Shown: piece by piece, positions 40,467-50,161 of the stretch
How the letters are laid out: every line of letters begins with the position of its first letter
How positions within the stretch are numbered: the first letter of the stretch is position 1
Assembly: GCA_947365245.1 (NCBI GenBank)
Contig: CANAWG010000001.1
Coordinates: 62,001-126,000 of the forward strand
DNA length: 64,000 nt
DNA from: an uncultured Oscillibacter sp.
Lineage (GTDB): Bacteria; Bacillota; Clostridia; Oscillospirales; Oscillospiraceae
Direction of reading: 5' to 3'
Made by a program: the position numbers and the translations under genes
The notes under the pieces: generated by a model
Database searches by the model: none
The model's input: only the letters and a program-made list of their open reading frames with translations
Told to the model about the DNA's origin: nothing

Positions 40467-42050
40467 ATGCGCAGACTGTGGTACAACGGAAAAATCGCCA
40501 GCATCGACCCGGAGAACCGGATCTATCAGGCCCTTGGCACAGAGGATGAGAAGATCGTCTTCCTGGGCAGCGGCCAGGAGGCCGACACCCTCCCCTGGGA
40601 CGAGCGCACCGACCTGAGAGGCGCCCTCATGCTCCCGGGCTTCCAGGACTCCCATTTACACATGATCCACTACGCCGTCCACCAGCGGAATGTGGCCCTC
40701 TTCGGCGTGGACTCCATCCCGGAGGCCGTCCGCATCTGCCGGGAGCGCATTCAGCAGGAGCATCCCCCCTACCTGGTGGCCGTGGGCTGGAATCAGGAGA
40801 TGATGAAGGAGGGCCGCCTGCTGACCCGGGCGGACATGGACCAGATCTCCACGGAGATCCCCGTCTGCGCCATCCGGGCCTGCGTCCACATCGCCGCCTG
40901 CAACAGTGTGATGCTGGACCGCATCCGGGAGATGAAGGACGCCAAGCCGGATATGCTGGCCGGCGTGGACTATGAAAACGGCCTCCTGCGGGAGAGCGCG
41001 GTGGACTTCTACCTGGACGTCATGCCCCCCGCCGACGATGAGGAGATCCGCCGCCTGGTGCGCCTGGCCCAGCGGGACATGAACGCCGGCGGCGTTGTGG
41101 CCATCCACTCCGACGACCTCCAGTCCGTGCCGGGCGTGGCGCCGGACCACGTGCTGAAGGTCTTCCAGGACATGGAGCGGGACGGAGAGCTGACCATGCG
41201 CATCCACGAGCAGTGCCTGGTGAGTCAGGCCCAGTTCCCGGCGCTGCTGGCCCTGCGGCCGGCGGAGACGGACCACACCGGCATGGTGCGCCTGTCCTGC
41301 CGGAAGCTCCTGGAGGACGGCTCCCTGGGCGCCAAATCCGCCGAGATGATCGACGGCTACGCGGACCAGCCGGACTACCACGGCATCGCCAACTACACCC
41401 CCCAGGAGCTCTACGAGATGGTCCGGGACGCCCACGCTCAGCGGCTGGACGTGGCCTGCCACGCCATCGGCGACCTGGCTCTGCAAAAGTTCTGCGACAC
41501 CGTGGAGCGGGTCCTGAGAGAGGACCCCTGGCCGGACCACCGCCACGGCGTCGTCCACGCCCAGGTCACCTCCCCGGAGCTGCTGGAGCGAATGCGGACC
41601 CTGGGGCTCCAGGCCTTTATTCAGCCCATCTTCATCGACGCGGACATGGAGATCATCGCCCAGCGGGTGGGCGAGGTCCACGCCAGGGACTGCTACCAGT
41701 GGAAGACCATGCGGGACATGGGCATCCACACCAGCGGCGGCTCCGACTGTCCGGTGGAGCCCTTCGACATTCTGGAGAACATCCGCTCCGCGGTGGACCG
41801 CAAAAACCGGGCGGGAACGCGCACCTACCTGCCGGAGCAGGCCCTGACAGTGGAGGAGGCCATCCGCCTCTTCACCTGCGACGCCGCCTGGAGCGGCCGG
41901 GACGAGGATTTCCGGGGCACGCTGGAGCTGGGCAAGCTGGCCGATCTGGTGGTGCTGGATCGGGACCTGTTCCAGATCCCGCCGGAGGAGTTCACCCAGG
42001 CCAAGGTGCTGGAGACCGTGGTGGGCGGAAAGACCGTCTATCACGCCTGA
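40467..42050 (+). CDS. YtcJ-like amidohydrolase
   Basis: A 527-residue metal-dependent hydrolase of the amidohydrolase-3 type. Metal ligands include H63-x-H65 in GFQDSHLHMIHYA, a later AIHSDDLQSVPG, the CHAIGDLAL segment and the C-terminal GGSDCPVEP. The N-terminal small beta domain starts MRRLWYNGKIASIDP. Such enzymes hydrolyse N-acyl or formamide bonds; the substrate is not fixed by sequence. The gene starts the cluster of D-peptide and acyl-amino-acid hydrolases and has its own sigma-A promoter, not a sigma-54 one. Confidence 0.88.
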   Translation: MRRLWYNGKIASIDPENRIYQALGTEDEKIVFLGSGQEADTLPWDERTDLRGALMLPGFQDSHLHMIHYAVHQRNVALFGVDSIPEAVRICRERIQQEHPPYLVAVGWNQEMMKEGRLLTRADMDQISTEIPVCAIRACVHIAACNSVMLDRIREMKDAKPDMLAGVDYENGLLRESAVDFYLDVMPPADDEEIRRLVRLAQRDMNAGGVVAIHSDDLQSVPGVAPDHVLKVFQDMERDGELTMRIHEQCLVSQAQFPALLALRPAETDHTGMVRLSCRKLLEDGSLGAKSAEMIDGYADQPDYHGIANYTPQELYEMVRDAHAQRLDVACHAIGDLALQKFCDTVERVLREDPWPDHRHGVVHAQVTSPELLERMRTLGLQAFIQPIFIDADMEIIAQRVGEVHARDCYQWKTMRDMGIHTSGGSDCPVEPFDILENIRSAVDRKNRAGTRTYLPEQALTVEEAIRLFTCDAAWSGRDEDFRGTLELGKLADLVVLDRDLFQIPPEEFTQAKVLETVVGGKTVYHA

Positions 42051-42061
42051 TTCAAAGGGAG

Positions 42062-42099
42062 AAAGAGGCTGTCATGCAAAGCATGACAGCCTCTTTTTT
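42062..42099. terminator. Bidirectional terminator between amidohydrolase and D-aminopeptidase genes
   Basis: A 16-bp perfect stem (AAAGAGGCTGTCATGC and complement), AAA loop and a run of six T residues. Confidence 0.9.
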
Positions 42100-42137
42100 G
42101 CATAAGCCGCGCCTCGGGCGGCAGACCGCCTCACCCG

Positions 42138-42944
42138 TCAGCCCATAATCAGCTCACAGACCATTTTCAGCTCCTCGGCGGTTTTGGCGGTGCAGCGCAC
42201 CACATCGTCGGCGATCTTCTCCACGCCGGGCAGCCGGCAGGCCGAGCGCACCGACTGATGGGTGGGCAGGCACACCTCCAGCACCAGGGTCTCCGGCACC
42301 TGGGGGACCGGCGGCGCGCCGGCGGCCAGCTGCCTGGCCACGGCCTCCTCGATGGCCCTCTCCGCCGTCAGGGGGTGAATATTCCAGGTGGAGTTGCCCT
42401 TGCAGCGCTTCACCGCCACGGTGGCAAGGCCCGGGATCTCCGCCTCCGCCATGCGGCACATCGCCTCGTCGCCGCTGAGGAACAGCGACGGGACCCCCAG
42501 GGACGCGGCGTACAGGGCGTTCATGGTAAACTCCGAGGCCAGACGGCCGTTGATCTTCGCCCAGCGGATCAGCTCATACTCGCTGGTGTGGGCCAGGGGG
42601 CTGCCGTCGCAGCCGGCGGGGGCGTGGTAGCCGATGTAGAGCACGCCGCTGAAGCTGCTGTCCAGTCCCCCCATCATGGAGGCGGGGTGGCAGGGCCAGC
42701 CCCGCATCAGCTCCGTGCCCTCCGGCAGGCCTATATGGCGGATGTTGCAGGCGCCGCCGTGGCCGTCCCGGACCACCGGGACCGCGCCCGATGCCAGCAC
42801 CGCCCGGCAGGCGGCCGCCGTCTCCCGGGTCATCTGCTCGCAGGCGGCGTCGTAGCCCTGCTTCCCCTCCTCGGTCTCCGACCAGAAGGTGACGTCGGTG
42901 ATTCCCTCGATGTCAACGCTGATAAAATACCGCTTCTGCTCCAT
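42138..42944 (-). CDS. dppA: D-aminopeptidase, DppA / M55 family
   Basis: A 268-residue zinc peptidase. The zinc and active-site residues known for DppA are present: D11 and E13 in SVDIEGITDVTF, D60-G-H62 in VVRDGHGGACNIRH and H107 in IGYHAPAG. The family cleaves N-terminal D-amino acids, such as D-Ala-D-Ala peptides, and forms ring-shaped decamers. There is no signal peptide, so it works on imported peptides. It lies 12 bases after the DmpA-like peptidase gene in the permease operon. Confidence 0.93.
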   Translation of the reverse strand: MEQKRYFISVDIEGITDVTFWSETEEGKQGYDAACEQMTRETAAACRAVLASGAVPVVRDGHGGACNIRHIGLPEGTELMRGWPCHPASMMGGLDSSFSGVLYIGYHAPAGCDGSPLAHTSEYELIRWAKINGRLASEFTMNALYAASLGVPSLFLSGDEAMCRMAEAEIPGLATVAVKRCKGNSTWNIHPLTAERAIEEAVARQLAAGAPPVPQVPETLVLEVCLPTHQSVRSACRLPGVEKIADDVVRCTAKTAEELKMVCELIMG

Positions 42945-42956
42945 GTCAGCCTCCCG

Positions 42957-44003
42957 TCACTGCTGCTCGTACTTTTCCAAAAACTCCAGCAGGCCCATGT
43001 ACTTGTTCCCCCGGACGCCCACGGTGGTCTTCGCGTGGTAGAGGGAGCTGATGATGGCCTCCTCCACCGCCTCCACGGTGGACTCGAATACCCAGTCGAT
43101 ATTCTCGTCGTAGAACATCTTCATGTCCCAGACGTTCTTGTCGCTGTAGTGGGGCTGGTTGTTGGCGGTGGTAAAGGCCACGGCGATGTCGCCGCTGCCG
43201 TTGCCGGAGTAGGATCCCACCCGGCCCAGGGAGATCATGGCCCGCTTGGCCAGCCGCTTGAGCTGGCGCTCGTTCAGCGGCGCGTCGGTGCCGATGACGA
43301 TGATGATGGAGCCGCTGTCCTTGAACTCCCGGCCGCATTCCTCGTTGCACTTGCGGGTGTCGATGTGGCGGCCGCCGATCACCAGGTTTCCGGCGGCGCC
43401 GAAGTTGGTCATGACCAGCGCGCCGGTGGTGTAGGTCTTTCCGTCCGCCTCCAGCTGCCGGGAGGAGGAGCCGATGCCGCCCTTCAGACCCAGGCACACC
43501 ATGCCGGTGCCGCCGCCCACGGCGCCCTCCTCAAAGTCCTCCGCCGCGCGCTCCACGGCCTGGAGCACGTGCTCCTCGGTGACGTGGAGGCCCCGGATGT
43601 CGTTGAGCCGCCCGTCGTTGCACTCGGTCACCAGGCAGTTCACCGTGCCGGTCTCCACGCCAATGTCCGGGTTCCGGGCCATCATATACTTCACCATGGC
43701 GGTGAGGGCCGTGCCGACGCTGAGGGTGTTGGTGAGGATGATGGGCGACTCGATGGTGCCCAGCTCCTCCACCTGCACAAGGCCGGCGCTCTTGCCGAAG
43801 CCGTTGATGATGGCCGTGCCGGCCATGACCTTCTCCTGGAAGAGGTTTCTCTCATGGGGGAGGATCGCCGTAACGCCGGTGTTGACCTCTCCGTGCTGGA
43901 TTGTGACCTGTCCGACCTTCACGCCGGGCACGTCGGTAATCAGATTCCGGGGCCCATGCTTCCACTTGGAGTGGAGCTCCAGACCGCCTTCAGGTATTCC
44001 CAT
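42957..44003 (-). CDS. DmpA-like (P1/S58) aminopeptidase
   Basis: A 348-residue N-terminal-nucleophile hydrolase. The autoprocessing site GGIG178-S179SS sits after the conserved GGGTGMVCLGLKGG, so the precursor should cut into alpha and beta chains, with Ser179 as the new N-terminal nucleophile. Family members hydrolyse peptides with N-terminal D-Ala or L-residues, and some are beta-peptidyl aminopeptidases. No signal peptide is present. With DppA downstream and an APC permease upstream it looks like part of a peptide- and D-residue-catabolic operon. GAGGAGGACT precedes the ATG. Confidence 0.93.
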   Translation of the reverse strand: MGIPEGGLELHSKWKHGPRNLITDVPGVKVGQVTIQHGEVNTGVTAILPHERNLFQEKVMAGTAIINGFGKSAGLVQVEELGTIESPIILTNTLSVGTALTAMVKYMMARNPDIGVETGTVNCLVTECNDGRLNDIRGLHVTEEHVLQAVERAAEDFEEGAVGGGTGMVCLGLKGGIGSSSRQLEADGKTYTTGALVMTNFGAAGNLVIGGRHIDTRKCNEECGREFKDSGSIIIVIGTDAPLNERQLKRLAKRAMISLGRVGSYSGNGSGDIAVAFTTANNQPHYSDKNVWDMKMFYDENIDWVFESTVEAVEEAIISSLYHAKTTVGVRGNKYMGLLEFLEKYEQQ

Positions 44004-44043
44004 AGTCCGTCCTCCTCATTATTGAACTAAATTTTCGTTCGTG

Positions 44044-44079
44044 AATATGCCCAGCGGCGGAATCACCGCTGGGCATATT
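44044..44079 (-). terminator. Hairpin between permease and DmpA-like genes
   Basis: AATATGCCCAGCGG and its complement make a 14-bp stem. There is no T run on the minus strand, so it may attenuate or stabilise the permease mRNA more than stop it. Confidence 0.55.
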
Positions 44080-44103
44080 GGTTCGGCATGTCTCCGCGCC
44101 GGA

Positions 44104-45477
44104 TTACTGCTGCGCTTTTTCTCTCTTGATCTTCGCGTCGAAGATGAAGTAGGTCACGGCGCCGATGGCGGGCACCGCCAGGCCGATGATGGAGGTCACG
44201 GGATCCTCCACCAGGGTGTTGATCATCAGGGCGCCGAAGAGCACCACGCTGATGACGATGGTGACGGGATAGCCCCAGGCCTTGTAGGGACGCTCCAGAT
44301 CGGGATACTTCTTCCGGTAGATAATGACGGCCAGCACCACCAGGGTGTTGAACACCATGCCAGAGAAGACCACCAGGTTCGTCAGCTGGTCCAGATTCCG
44401 CAGCAGCACCAGGATGGAGCAGATGACGGCCTGCCAGATCAGGGAGTGGGTGGGAACCTGATACTTGGGGTGGATCTTCTTGTAGCTCTGGAAGAAGTGG
44501 CCCTCCACGGCCATGGCGTAGTAGTTGCGGGCGAAAGCGATAATCATGCCGTTGATAGAGCCGAACATGGCCACCAGCATGGCCGCCAGCACCAGCGCGC
44601 CGCCGAAGCCGCCGAACACCCGCTCGGCCACCACGGTGCCCAGATACAGGTCGTCGCTGTTGATGCGGGAGACGATCTCCTCATAAGGCAGCACCTTGTA
44701 GAGGGCGAAGTTGAACACGGTGTAGAGGATGGTGATGCCGCCGATGCCGAAGATCAGGATGCGGGGCAGGTTCTTGCCGGGGTCCTTGATCTCCTCGGCC
44801 ACGTTGTTGGCGTTGGTCCAGCCCTCGTAGGCCCACAGGGTGGCCACGGTGGCGAAGGCGATCATGCTCAGCGCGCCGCCGAAGCCGCCCTCAAAGCCGC
44901 CGGCGGGAACGGGGTTCAGGTTGGGGCTCTGCCGGCCCATGACCAGGGCGCCGGCGATGATGATGACAATGGGGATGAGCTTTGCCACCAAAGAGACGTT
45001 GGACAGGATGCTGCCCAGCTTGATGCCCAGGCAGTTGAACGCGGTCAGGGCGATGATGATGACGATGGCCACGATCTTCACCGTCATGTCGGACATGGGG
45101 AAATAGGTCCGCAGGGTGGTGACCAGGGCGATGGCGCCCGCCGAGATGGAGCCGGCGCCGCTGAGCAGCCAGCTGGTGAAGCCGTACATATAGCCCACCA
45201 CGGGGTGATACGCCTTGTCCAGATAGACCACCATGCCGCCGGCCACGGGATCGCAGGCCCCCAGCTCGGCGAAGCACAGCCCGCCCAGAATGGACACCAG
45301 GCCGCCCACGATCCAGCAGATCAGCGCCATGCCCAGGTTCATGTTCGTCCGCTGCAGGACATAGGAGCCCAGGTAGAAGATTCCGGACCCGATGACGATG
45401 CCGGCCATGATGCCGACGCCGCCAAAGAGGCCCATTTCGCGCTTTAGGCCGACTTGTTGTTCGTTTTTGTTTTCCAT
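44104..45477 (-). CDS. APC-superfamily amino-acid permease
   Basis: A 457-residue transporter with twelve membrane helices. Helix 1 has the unwound substrate motif GIMAGIVIGSGIF, and helix 6 ALSMIAFATVATLWAYEGWTN. It resembles the LAT/YkfD-like amino-acid transporters. It is likely to bring in amino acids or small N-acylated residues for the adjacent hydrolases. GAGGAGAACAAC sets the ATG at 45477 over a longer frame. A near-consensus sigma-54 promoter lies 58 bases upstream. Confidence 0.92.
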   Translation of the reverse strand: MENKNEQQVGLKREMGLFGGVGIMAGIVIGSGIFYLGSYVLQRTNMNLGMALICWIVGGLVSILGGLCFAELGACDPVAGGMVVYLDKAYHPVVGYMYGFTSWLLSGAGSISAGAIALVTTLRTYFPMSDMTVKIVAIVIIIALTAFNCLGIKLGSILSNVSLVAKLIPIVIIIAGALVMGRQSPNLNPVPAGGFEGGFGGALSMIAFATVATLWAYEGWTNANNVAEEIKDPGKNLPRILIFGIGGITILYTVFNFALYKVLPYEEIVSRINSDDLYLGTVVAERVFGGFGGALVLAAMLVAMFGSINGMIIAFARNYYAMAVEGHFFQSYKKIHPKYQVPTHSLIWQAVICSILVLLRNLDQLTNLVVFSGMVFNTLVVLAVIIYRKKYPDLERPYKAWGYPVTIVISVVLFGALMINTLVEDPVTSIIGLAVPAIGAVTYFIFDAKIKREKAQQ

Positions 45478-45534
45478 GTTGTTCTCCTCTCTCATAATCC
45501 GGCTCCGGTTGGATGCCTTCTGAAAAAGATATAA

Positions 45535-45549
45535 GCAAAAAGTATGCCA
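45535..45549 (-). promoter_or_regulatory. Sigma-54 promoter of the permease-DmpA-DppA operon
   Basis: TGGCAT-N5-TTGC on the minus strand (consensus TGGCAC-N5-TTGC), 58 bases before the ATG at 45477. The activator gene at 45749 lies divergently beside it. Confidence 0.85.
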
Positions 45550-45653
45550 GATATGCCGAAGCCGGGAGGCGGCGAAATGTCCGCTTTTTCCTGGATCTCC
45601 CATAACGCCTCCAGTTTTTCTGGAAAAAATTATCAAAAAAATCCTATTTAATC

Positions 45654-45682
45654 TTGTTTTTATCCTATTATTTTGCTATACT
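45654..45682 (+). promoter_or_regulatory. Sigma-A-type promoter of the sigma-54 activator gene
   Basis: TTGTTT, 17 bases, TATACT. The rest of the gap 45478-45748 holds the divergent sigma-54 promoter and an AT-rich stretch, likely for binding or bending. Confidence 0.7.
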
Positions 45683-45748
45683 TGCGGTACAGCGGGACGA
45701 AATCCGCCTTGGAACCGAAGCGCCTGCCGATTGGGAGGGAGAGCCGAT

Positions 45749-47704
<1,956 letters not shown>

Positions 47705-47727
47705 CCGCCCCGGCCTCCCGCCGCTTT

Positions 47728-47742
47728 TGGCACGGCGTTTGC
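47728..47742 (+). promoter_or_regulatory. Sigma-54 promoter of the deacylase-hydrolase operon
   Basis: TGGCAC-N5-TTGC, an exact match to the -24/-12 consensus, directly after the activator gene and 59 bases before the ATG at 47802. Confidence 0.93.
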
Positions 47743-47801
47743 TTTATAGCATTTTGAAATCACCGCGCCAAGCGGCGCATGAGAACAGGAGGGAATCTAC
47801 A

Positions 47802-49382
47802 ATGTATGATCTGGTAATCCGGAACGTCCGGATCATCGACGGCTCCTCCGCCCCCTGGTTCCGGGGCTGGGTGGGCGTCAAAGGCGGCGTCATCGCCGCC
47901 GTCGGCACCGGCCGCGCCCCCGGGAACGCCCGGGAAACGGTGGACGGCGAGGACCGGTATCTCACCCCCGGCTTCATCGACATCCACGCCCACAGCGACA
48001 CCCGCCTCCAGGGCTGTCCCACGGCGGACAGCCGCATTCTCCAGGGCGTCACCACGGAGATCGGGGGGCTGTGCGGCCTCTCCGTGGCCCCGGTGAACCG
48101 CGACCCGGCCCGGCTCAAGCAGCTGCGGGACTATGTGGGGGACCTGGATTACAGCTGGGAGACCGTGGGACAGTTCCTGGACGTGCTGGAGGGCGTTGGG
48201 ACCAGCACCAACTTCGGCACCGCCGTGGGCCACGGCACCCTCCGCATCGCCGCCATGGGCTTTGACGCCCGGAGTGCGGAGCCATCGGAGCTGGAGACCA
48301 TGAAGGCCCTGCTGCGCAGGGCTCTGGAGGACGGGGCCTTCTGCCTCTCCAGCGGGCTGATCTATCCCCCCGGCTGCTACGCCGGCGCCGACGAGCTGAC
48401 GGAGCTCTGCCGGGAGCTGGTCCCCTACGGCGCCTACTACGAGACCCATATACGGGACGAGGGCGAGGGCGTGGTGGAGGCGCTGCAGGAGGCGCTGGCG
48501 GTCTGCCGCGGCTCCGGCGCGCCCCTCCAGATCTCCCACCACAAGGTGACCCGCAAGAGCGTCTGGCAGGTCCACTGCAAGACCACCATCGCCCTGATCG
48601 ACCAGGCCCGCCGCCAGGGGCTGGACGTACAGGCGGACCAGTACCCCTACAGCGCCTCCGCCACCACCCTGGACAGCAACGCCCCCCTGTGGGCCTTTGA
48701 GGGCGGCGTGGAGCAGCTTCTGGCCCGCCTCCAGGACCCGGCGCTGCGGCAGCGCATCAACGCCGAGGCCAACGCCAGCCACGTGGGCCGCTGGGGAGAC
48801 ATCTACATCCCCTACGTGGCCACGGAGAAGAATCAGTGGACCGTGGGCAAGTCCATCCAGGAGATCGCCGAGATCCGGGGCGTGGACCCCGCCGACGCCT
48901 GCTTTGACCTGGTCGTGGAGGAGCGGTGCCGGGTGGGGGAGGTCAACTACGGCATGTGCGAGGAGGACATCGAGTACATCATGTCCCAGCCCTACACCAT
49001 GATCGGCTCCGACGGCGAGGCCGCCTCCCTGGACCACAGCGGCCAGCCCCACCCCAGGTGGTACGGCACCTTCCCCCGGGTGATCGCCAAATACTGCCGG
49101 GAGCGGAAGCTGTTCTCCCTGGAGACCGCGATTTTCAAAATGACGGGCCTGCCCGCCGCCCGCCTGGGTCTCCAGAACCGGGGGCTGATCCGGCGGGGGA
49201 TGCAGGCGGACCTGGTGCTCTTCGACTTTGACGAGATTGAGGACACCCCCACCTACCAGAATCCCAAGCAGCCCTGCCGGGGCATCCGCCGGGTCTACGT
49301 CAACGGCGCGCTGACGGCCCTGGACGGCGTTCACACCGGGGCCAGAAACGGCGCCATCATGAGGAAAGGACGGAACACATAA
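47802..49382 (+). CDS. N-acyl-D-amino-acid deacylase
   Basis: A 526-residue amidohydrolase. Metal ligands are H62-x-H64 and D66 in FIDIHAHSDTRL, C91 in GGLCGLSVAP, YETHIRDEGEGVVEAL, PLQISHHKVTRK and IGSDGEAASL. This cysteine-containing site is typical of D-aminoacylases. It releases D-amino acids from N-acyl derivatives. AGGAGGGAATC precedes the ATG. It overlaps the next gene by TAATG and is driven by a sigma-54 promoter, so it belongs to the same regulon as the permease. Confidence 0.93.
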   Translation: MYDLVIRNVRIIDGSSAPWFRGWVGVKGGVIAAVGTGRAPGNARETVDGEDRYLTPGFIDIHAHSDTRLQGCPTADSRILQGVTTEIGGLCGLSVAPVNRDPARLKQLRDYVGDLDYSWETVGQFLDVLEGVGTSTNFGTAVGHGTLRIAAMGFDARSAEPSELETMKALLRRALEDGAFCLSSGLIYPPGCYAGADELTELCRELVPYGAYYETHIRDEGEGVVEALQEALAVCRGSGAPLQISHHKVTRKSVWQVHCKTTIALIDQARRQGLDVQADQYPYSASATTLDSNAPLWAFEGGVEQLLARLQDPALRQRINAEANASHVGRWGDIYIPYVATEKNQWTVGKSIQEIAEIRGVDPADACFDLVVEERCRVGEVNYGMCEEDIEYIMSQPYTMIGSDGEAASLDHSGQPHPRWYGTFPRVIAKYCRERKLFSLETAIFKMTGLPAARLGLQNRGLIRRGMQADLVLFDFDEIEDTPTYQNPKQPCRGIRRVYVNGALTALDGVHTGARNGAIMRKGRNT

Positions 49383-50161
49383 TGAGCGCTAAGGAACGCA
49401 TTTTGCAGGAGATCAAAACCTTCCCCGGCCAGGCCGGAATCTACTATCAGAACCTGTCCACCGGCGAGACCTGGGGGTACGGGGAAAAGGATCCCTACCT
49501 GGCGGCCAGCATCGTCAAGCTGCCGCTGATGGCCGCCATCCTCCTGTGGAAGTCCCGGGGGGAGACCAGCTTTGACGACAAGGTGACCATCCGGGAGGAC
49601 CAGAAGATCCCCGGCTGCGGCGCGGTGCAATTCCTCAACGGCGACGTGACGCTGACCGTGGGGGAGCTGTGCAAGCTGATGATCGTCATCAGCGACAGCT
49701 GCGCCACCAATGCCCTCTTCCGCCACTACGGCGCCGCGGCCATCCACGAGGCGTTTTTGGAGCTGGGCCTCATCGGCACCCAGTTCAACCGGGAGTATTG
49801 GGACGCGGAGCGGGAGAGCCGGGGCATCAACAACTACTTCGTCCCCGAGGAAATGGGCCGCCTGCTGCGCAGGATGTACGACCGCACGCTGGTGGACGCG
49901 GAGTCCTCCCAGTGGCTGGAGGACCTTCTCCGCCAGCAGCAGATCAACCACAAGCTGGGCGGGAAGCTGCCCATGGACTTCCCCATGGCCCACAAGACCG
50001 GCGACGAGGAGGACAAGGCCCACGACGTGGGCATCGTCTTCACCAAGTCCCCTTTCATCGCGTGCTTTGCCTACGTGGGGCCCAACATGCAGGACTATGA
50101 GGACTTCATCCGCCGCGCCGCACGGATGCTGGCGGACGAGAACGGCGGTGTGGAGCTGTAG
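49382..50161 (+). CDS. Cytoplasmic class-A beta-lactamase-like serine hydrolase
   Basis: A 259-residue protein with the serine beta-lactamase/PBP fold. The catalytic tetrad S43-x-x-K46 is in AASIVKLPLM, the SDN-like motif is S104-D105-S106 in VISDSCATNAL, and K205-T206-G207 is in AHKTGDEED. A glutamate-rich NREYWDAERE region lies where class A enzymes have Glu166. It has no signal peptide, which argues against a role in drug resistance and for an intracellular hydrolase of D-peptides, cyclic amides or similar bonds. It is translationally coupled to the N-acyl-D-amino-acid deacylase. Confidence 0.87.
   Translation: MSAKERILQEIKTFPGQAGIYYQNLSTGETWGYGEKDPYLAASIVKLPLMAAILLWKSRGETSFDDKVTIREDQKIPGCGAVQFLNGDVTLTVGELCKLMIVISDSCATNALFRHYGAAAIHEAFLELGLIGTQFNREYWDAERESRGINNYFVPEEMGRLLRRMYDRTLVDAESSQWLEDLLRQQQINHKLGGKLPMDFPMAHKTGDEEDKAHDVGIVFTKSPFIACFAYVGPNMQDYEDFIRRAARMLADENGGVEL

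Follow-up and report, generated by a model that had tools for sequence, protein, structure and literature searches.

GamR-type sigma-54 regulons of Clostridioides and Clostridium (puuDT; CD0167/CD0166-CD0165; CD1186/CD1187-CD1189) have a transporter and an amide hydrolase as the targets of their activators (PMC6615313, PMC7438776). For CD0166-CD0165 of C. difficile, which encodes a peptidase and an amino acid transporter, a value of 0.17 was listed in a sigL mutant (PMC7438776); this supports sigma-54 control of this type of regulon only. D-specific enzymes are also known to cluster: in Pyrococcus abyssi, Pab87 (CubicO, S12), D-stereospecific as is DppA, is encoded close to genes for a D-aminoacylase, for an aminotransferase and for a dipeptide ABC transporter, and was proposed to act on environmental D-peptides (PMC2651629). 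Here, we analysed a 64,000-nucleotide stretch (the window; C1:62001-126000) of the draft genome of an uncultured Oscillibacter sp. (2.8 Mb, 53 contigs), which carries a sigma-54 activator together with genes for an APC-family permease, a DppA-type D-aminopeptidase, a DmpA-type aminopeptidase, an N-acyl-D-amino-acid deacylase and a class-A-like serine hydrolase. The initial annotation had described these six genes and a neighbouring YtcJ-like gene as a candidate D-peptide and N-acyl-D-amino-acid utilisation island; the six stood as a unit conserved in relatives and sharing one promoter type, while the YtcJ-like gene was judged not to belong to it in this genome.

As sequence anatomy, the six genes almost certainly form a sigma-54 regulon. 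The reading that we favour, and consider probable, is that the regulon is substrate-inducible and serves peptides containing D-residues and, probably, N-acyl-D-amino acids. The activator would sense an intracellular small molecule through its N-terminal and PAS domains, bind tandem AATAGGAT-type repeats and drive both sigma-54 promoters; the permease would bring the substrate into the cell. In the cytoplasm, D-residue peptides or amides would then be cleaved by DppA, by DmpA and by the class-A-like serine hydrolase, and N-acyl-D-amino acids freed by the deacylase. The D-specificity and the nature of the substrate and inducer are predictions, according to which peptidoglycan-derived or other bacterial D-peptides would be used, with peptidoglycan fragments the likeliest source.

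Operon structure and sigma-54 promoters

All seven reading frames within 40467-50161 are intact and gave Pfam matches to the families originally assigned to them (Table 1). Six, from 42138 to 50161, are judged to form the functional unit, with the YtcJ-like gene as a flank. The permease, DmpA and DppA genes run leftward and the activator, deacylase and serine hydrolase genes rightward, the start of the last overlapping the deacylase stop by one base (position 49382).

Promoters were sought with the pattern TGGCAY-N5-TTGCW (-24/-12), perfect or with at most one mismatch, and compared with shuffles. Two perfect sites are present in the 64 kb, against 0.06 expected (mean of 100 shuffles, none of which has two): TGGCATACTTTTTGCT, ~56 bp 5′ of the permease start, and TGGCACGGCGTTTGCT, ~58 bp 5′ of the deacylase start. 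With one mismatch allowed there are five sites (3.0 expected; 19/100 shuffles reach five), so that only the perfect sites are informative. In the five close relatives (L001-L005, all Oscillibacter or Oscillospiraceae, with L002 from the commensal strain Oscillibacter sp. 1-3; matched by contig coordinates to genomes G364, G306, G350, G367 and G333 of a set of 86 from the genus) the permease promoter is also perfect, giving 6/6 with the window, and the deacylase promoter is found with at most one mismatch in all five loci where the deacylase is a separate unit (window, L001, L002, L004, L005). L003 has permease, DmpA, DppA, deacylase and serine hydrolase in a single run with another gene order, and no separate deacylase promoter was found there. 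Across 20 loci, 52 sigma-54 sites were counted versus 7-12 in five single-base shuffles, some of them not before genes of interest. A profile search identified one copy of the sigma-54 gene (rpoN; PF04552) in the genome, which thus has both -24/-12 promoters before the target genes and the sigma factor.

Table 1 Features of the cluster and its flank in the window (UAS, upstream activating sequence).
Feature	Position	Strand	Evidence
YtcJ-like amidohydrolase, flanking gene	40467..42050	+	Pfam Amidohydro_3 1.5e-90
DppA-type D-aminopeptidase (M55)	42138..42944	-	Pfam Peptidase_M55 1.6e-70
DmpA/BapA-type aminopeptidase (S58, self-cleaving family)	42957..44003	-	Pfam Peptidase_S58 5.9e-115
14-nt perfect inverted repeat, 8-nt loop, permease-DmpA gap	44044..44079	.	
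APC-family permease	44104..45477	-	Pfam AA_permease_2 5.9e-58
Sigma-54 promoter TGGCATACTTTTTGCT, permease-DmpA-DppA operon	45534..45549	-	perfect match
Putative UAS, tandem AATAGGAT / ACAAGAT / AATAGGAT, units 10-11 bp apart	45641..45673	-	model score, conservation
Sigma-54 activator (enhancer-binding protein, EBP): N-terminal domain, PAS, AAA+, winged-helix C terminus	45749..47704	+	
Sigma-54 promoter TGGCACGGCGTTTGCT, deacylase-serine hydrolase operon	47728..47743	+	perfect match
N-acyl-D-amino-acid deacylase (D-aminoacylase type)	47802..49382	+	Pfam Amidohydro_3 1e-26; 1m7j E 6e-91
Leaderless class-A-like serine hydrolase (SxxK, SDS, KTG)	49382..50161	+	Pfam Beta-lactamase2 9.6e-50

Activator clade and associated genes

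The activator matches Pfam Sigma54_activat (1.7e-65), with GESGTGKE (Walker A) at 360 and GSFTGA at 407. Residues ~209-311 match PAS domains (AlphaFold model and PAS matches), residues 1-201 gave no interpretable match, and the C terminus (581-648) is an HTH_12 winged helix, in which G-R-x-G is kept in all 14 activators aligned. Pfam found no Fis-type helix-turn-helix (PF02954) in the protein; this domain was reported for 335 of >430 EBPs surveyed (PMC6615313) and is therefore not obligatory.

In a tree of activators (49 collected, 47 kept, two short ones dropped), all 14 from loci with DmpA group in a single clade (support 98/94, recovered in 98% of bootstrap trees), and the loci of the remaining 33 have no DmpA. 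The nearest row outside this clade, L064, comes from a locus with a YtcJ relative, and the next group is a separate 13-row clade (100/98) whose rows we assign to the GamR type. GamR-type loci examined pair a permease with C26 or M20 (C26 gamma-glutamyl-type hydrolase in L012 and L061-L063), with the exception of L065, which has Opp parts. Near-copies among the rows (eight C. difficile, four Halobacillus, six Oscillibacter-type) and several long branches, the joins of which were flagged, lead us to count only ~5 or 6 independent lineages in the DmpA-linked clade.

Gene content around these activators was compared across species, each represented by one genome, in a scan that depended on exact peptide patterns and returned 44 loci; 12 of these, in which the activator aligns over ≥640 residues with an identity of ≥43%, were taken as related. 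DmpA is present in all 12, DppA in nine, the deacylase in six and the class-A-like hydrolase in four. The initial annotation would have taken the island for a chance cluster if most homologous clusters lacked the deacylase or peptidases next to the activator; a peptidase is present in every related locus, and the deacylase in half of them, not most. In the more distant loci other genes appear (Pfam): Asp/Glu racemase, S12 and Opp/SBP_5 in L006; S66 (LD-carboxypeptidase), racemase and S12 with an Opp transporter in L007; racemase and M20 in L008; S12 in L009; racemase, S12 and aminotransferase in L011; and branched-chain-type ABC parts with a YtcJ relative in L020, to which L010, a 4-kb contig, is near-identical. 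A class-wide search gave 41 matches in 27/391 genomes; 20 regions, mostly higher-scoring, were examined of the 40 non-window matches. The top-scoring region, L059, carries S12, Opp, racemase, S66, DmpA, DppA and several sigma-54 sites, and thus adds to the 12 loci with DmpA near the activator; the DmpA query had no match in the other 19, several of which are short contigs. The replacement enzymes (S12, S66, Asp/Glu-type racemase), which come with an Opp/SBP_5 transporter, are of families known to work on D-peptides or to convert D and L residues into each other, and in this way support a D-peptide function.

Within the genus, close orthologues of the activator, DmpA, DppA and deacylase (identity floors 71%, 80%, 67% and 78%) occur in the same six of 86 genomes, own genome included, and that of the serine hydrolase (floor 80%) in five of those six; elsewhere in the set, weaker relatives of DmpA are found in one genome, of DppA in three and of the serine hydrolase in four. 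These could be amino-acid genes that merely adjoin, as might be suspected from the deacylase, any match to which is seen in 30/86 genomes. Close orthologues are nevertheless near all-or-none and stay together although their surroundings differ and L003 has them reordered, and promoter type and repeat are shared, so a chance neighbourhood can hardly be the explanation. Shared ancestry of the six genomes may explain part of the co-occurrence; the differing surroundings and the reordering in L003 speak for the parts being kept together. Of nine flanking genes tested, L001 has seven and L002 has six, all on the right side, whereas L003-L005 yielded none; either the module or its surroundings have therefore moved. 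Composition gave no sign of a foreign island (G+C 64.3% versus 65.5% for the window).

The YtcJ-like gene was rejected as a member of the regulon in this genome. It converges on DppA, with one terminator-like hairpin on its 5′ side and a second, spotted by eye, between the two stops; no sigma-54 site with at most one mismatch precedes it; and, together with a neighbouring MMPL-type gene, it adjoins the cluster in only one of five close relatives (L001). A YtcJ relative (31% identical) lies behind DmpA in Sedimentibacter L020, and in L072 (4201-10028), where the activator falls outside the DmpA clade, the permease is 65% identical to that of the window and accompanied by DppA, racemase and two YtcJ relatives. 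A functional YtcJ link to such clusters may thus exist in other genomes.

The inverted repeat between permease and DmpA is not followed by a T run; it measures 12 nt in L001, is replaced by a different one in L004, and was not reported in L002, L003 or L005. It may be an RNA processing or attenuation element that sets the permease:peptidase ratio. A second activator in the same genome (C10:35841-37637, L046; 36% identical) has two perfect sigma-54 sites and neighbours encoding an aminotransferase, an SDF symporter, a RidA-like and a serine-dehydratase-like protein, an arrangement that appears to resemble a cysteine-catabolism regulon.

A candidate activator-binding repeat

When the permease-activator spacers from six genomes are aligned, two blocks stand out as conserved: one is the sigma-54 element, the other AATAGGATAAAA(A)CAAGATTAAATAGGAT. 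The latter corresponds to the tandem repeat of Table 1, located ~92 bp upstream of the permease -24/-12 element between permease and activator, and is the putative binding site of the activator; the third unit is degraded in L003. With a model built from L001-L005 only, the window repeat scores 38.5 bits, the next best position in the window 13.8 and 20 shuffles ≤13.1, and a 19-base repeat pattern allowing three mismatches has one match in the window, an exact one, against 0.05 expected.

Distant loci were scored with a model from the window plus L001-L005 and ten shuffles each. Repeats near mapped sigma-54 promoters exceed all ten shuffles in L006 (at two promoters), L007 (17.5; 12.9 versus 12.8 for shuffles at a second promoter), L008, L009, L010 and L020, and in L059 the repeat reaches 23.1 versus 19.6. 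Poorer fits are a 16.1-bit site at 4524 in L006 and 24.1- and 21.7-bit sites in L008, away from mapped promoters. Outside the clade, scores are slightly above shuffles in L021 (13.1 versus 10.0) and L046 (9.0 versus 8.3) and not above them in L012, L016, L022 or L030; among L060-L065 and L072, only L060 exceeds shuffles, by 0.4. In a listing without shuffles, 18/25 mapped clade promoters score ≥12.8.

Promoters without the repeat are those of the deacylase in the window, L004 and L005 and of the racemase and M20 genes in L008 and L009. In the three loci whose deacylase promoter lacks it, the shared site would need to work over ~2 kb, unless that promoter is served otherwise. L001 and L002 have a repeat before the deacylase promoter as well. 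This promoter lies ~24 bp 3′ of the activator stop in the window and >110 bp from it in L001 and L002; the longer gap with its extra repeat would represent a second enhancer, lost or gained.

A stringent form of the repeat matches twice in the genome, at the window site and at C2:5804, and the regulon therefore looks local. The C2:5804 match was rejected as a second site and taken as chance, with other genes around it and no sigma-54 site in the 3-kb locus (L056). A dedicated racemase was also sought in this genome: two PF01177 matches were found, the better one 34-37% identical to the racemases of related loci, and it was not taken as a member. Its locus (L057, 3.7 kb) has no sigma-54 site at one mismatch, and its best repeat-like score, 10.5, is above ten shuffles (≤6.8) and far below the window site.

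Predicted substrates and relation to known systems

The Ser of N[GN]SGD, which we take to be the second catalytic Ser of S58, is present in 12/12 sequences (window, L001-L009, L011, L020). The closest solved relative of DmpA is 2drh, and the Gly-Ser cleavage site falls at residues 231-232, a site recognised from the point at which the beta chain of a relative begins (PMC9570944). The same regulon could instead serve carnosine and other beta-alanyl or non-alpha peptides, with the permease importing the dipeptide and the other hydrolases accessory: S58 includes beta-aminopeptidases (3n2w/3n5i) and carnosine-forming enzymes (PMC9570944), DmpA is the one hydrolase common to all related loci, and the C26-permease pairs of the sister clade imply that the wider family handles non-standard amides. 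DppA, however, accompanies DmpA in most of these loci. Moreover, DppA, D-aminoacylase, S12, S66 and Asp/Glu racemase are not known to take part in carnosine breakdown, and we regard a carnosine-type substrate as improbable.

DppA aligns with B. subtilis DppA (1hi9; E 2.1e-21), including the Asp, Glu, three His and Glu residues presumed to be the metal ligands and catalytic His; for its relatives, only crude residue patterns were applied, several of which failed to match. The Bacillus equivalog model NF058634 scores 107.7 bits against a curated cut-off of 430, so the window protein appears to be an M55 relative rather than this equivalog. As a special case within the D-peptide reading, the cluster might salvage peptidoglycan stem peptides like B. 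subtilis dpp-ykf, the make-up of which resembles DppA, Opp, S66 and racemase in L007 and L059. The window cluster, on the other hand, lacks S66, epimerase and gamma-D-Glu endopeptidase, and its importer is an APC permease, not an oligopeptide ABC transporter; DmpA and D-aminoacylase are not known from dpp-ykf. This narrower version seems less likely than not.

The best solved matches of the deacylase are D-aminoacylases, and the zinc ligands and catalytic Asp, Lys, Tyr and Arg of 1m7j (AfDam) are kept (numbering matched by hand). In crude patterns across relatives, SHHK is present in 3/7, with two further misses in L005 and three in L011. The AfDam specificity position, the last column of the local alignment, is Leu296 in the window deacylase, with Leu in 6/7 sequences and Ser in L011. 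Enzymes deacetylating D-Glu and sugar acids have Arg and Gln here, respectively, and Leu therefore points to hydrophobic N-acyl-D-amino acids over D-Glu or sugar acids (PMC12017989); Thr in place of the pocket Met of AfDam (hand count) suggests a somewhat different pocket. Genome G311 has seven deacylase relatives (34-38% identical to that of the window), the highest number among the 86 genomes.

SxxK, SD[SN] and K[TS]G are found in all five serine hydrolases (window, L001-L004), with SDS in the window where class A has SDN, as L004 does. Glu166 is not recognisable, the class A beta-lactamase model scores 101.7 bits against a cut-off of 200, and a working beta-lactamase is unlikely. Resistance enzymes are known from the class-A-like, S12 and S66 families, and cytoplasmic hydrolysis might then detoxify, or give self-protection from, D-residue antibiotics. 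In a simple hydropathy scan (not a signal-peptide predictor) of the N-terminal 45 residues, none of the five hydrolases showed a hydrophobic leader, in agreement with the initial annotation and only consistent with import before hydrolysis. The leaderless state, the co-regulated importer, the coupling of importers with amide hydrolases in the sister clade and the missing Glu166 all make a role in detoxification very improbable.

Several observations weigh against the D-peptide reading. APC permeases, to which the window protein belongs (a crude hydropathy count gives ~11 membrane spans), usually transport single amino acids, not peptides. The deacylase is missing from half of the related loci, and none of the six Oscillibacter-type clusters showed a racemase. 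The repeat is absent within 260 bp of 7/25 clade promoters (scores ≤3.5), and the best one in clade member L011 scores 11.1, below its shuffles (13.4). Repeat matches in distant loci are support and not a blind test, the unit and spacing having been picked by eye with the upstream stretches of L006-L016 in view. Window DmpA, like 2drh, has Asn aligned with Tyr146, a residue often replaced in the family, and DmpA relatives also form or cleave carnosine (formation, PMC9570944) and beta-peptides. OngB, with a D-aminoacylase fold, is a sugar deacetylase (PMC12017989). Use of D-peptides and N-acyl-D-amino acids is still the best reading, because the members of one activator clade are surrounded by varying sets of stereospecific hydrolases, of racemases and of peptide importers that take each other's place.

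More tentatively, and quite possibly, this clade could be a new group of ligand-sensing sigma-54 activators beside the GamR type: a D-peptide sensor of gut and anaerobic Bacillota with a AATAGGAT enhancer and an interchangeable toolkit of importer and stereospecific hydrolases, with or without racemase. Every shed cell wall is a source of D-amino-acid peptides, and Oscillibacter-type bacteria would, if the D-peptide reading is true, have a route to feed on them. It would also provide a testable sensor, a DNA site, a defined enzyme set and possibly a ligand-responsive promoter, and the swapping of parts around one activator suggests which D-specific hydrolases can substitute for one another.

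GamR-type regulons share promoter type and sister activators with the cluster and differ in targets: they have C26 or M20 with a permease, and DmpA, DppA, deacylase and racemase were not found by the queries used. Locus L016 is probably of the CD0167 type, with the same gene content and a promoter identical to that of CD0166-CD0165 (PMC7438776), and L012 probably of the GamR type from gene content only; in neither does the window-type repeat exceed shuffles. YpdR and XcyR, sigma-54 activators over peptidases in Clostridiales ('peptide degradation'), differ in their targets, metM-memP-pepABC (plus a second operon) and malY-pepT-hyp (PMC6615313). The initial annotation knew of no described system with this gene set: no paper on it, or on a dedicated inducible D-peptide uptake circuit in gut commensals, was found in the open-access literature, and none of the 39 reconstructed sigma-54 regulon groups in the text of PMC6615313 consulted has its target set. 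The Pab87 neighbourhood (PMC2651629) is a partial precedent, sharing the theme of D-peptidase, D-aminoacylase and transporter. L011 and L006 are nearest to it in content; the window cluster lacks S12 and carries DmpA, DppA and a class-A-like hydrolase. Pyrococcus is archaeal, and archaea are not known to have sigma-54. The dppABCDE-ykfABCD genes of B. subtilis share DppA with the window and also Opp, S66 and racemase with L007 and L059; they include an ABC transporter and are not known to include DmpA or a deacylase or to be under sigma-54 control. D-peptide neighbourhoods and sister sigma-54 regulons are thus already known; what appears to be new is this activator-controlled combination of genes.

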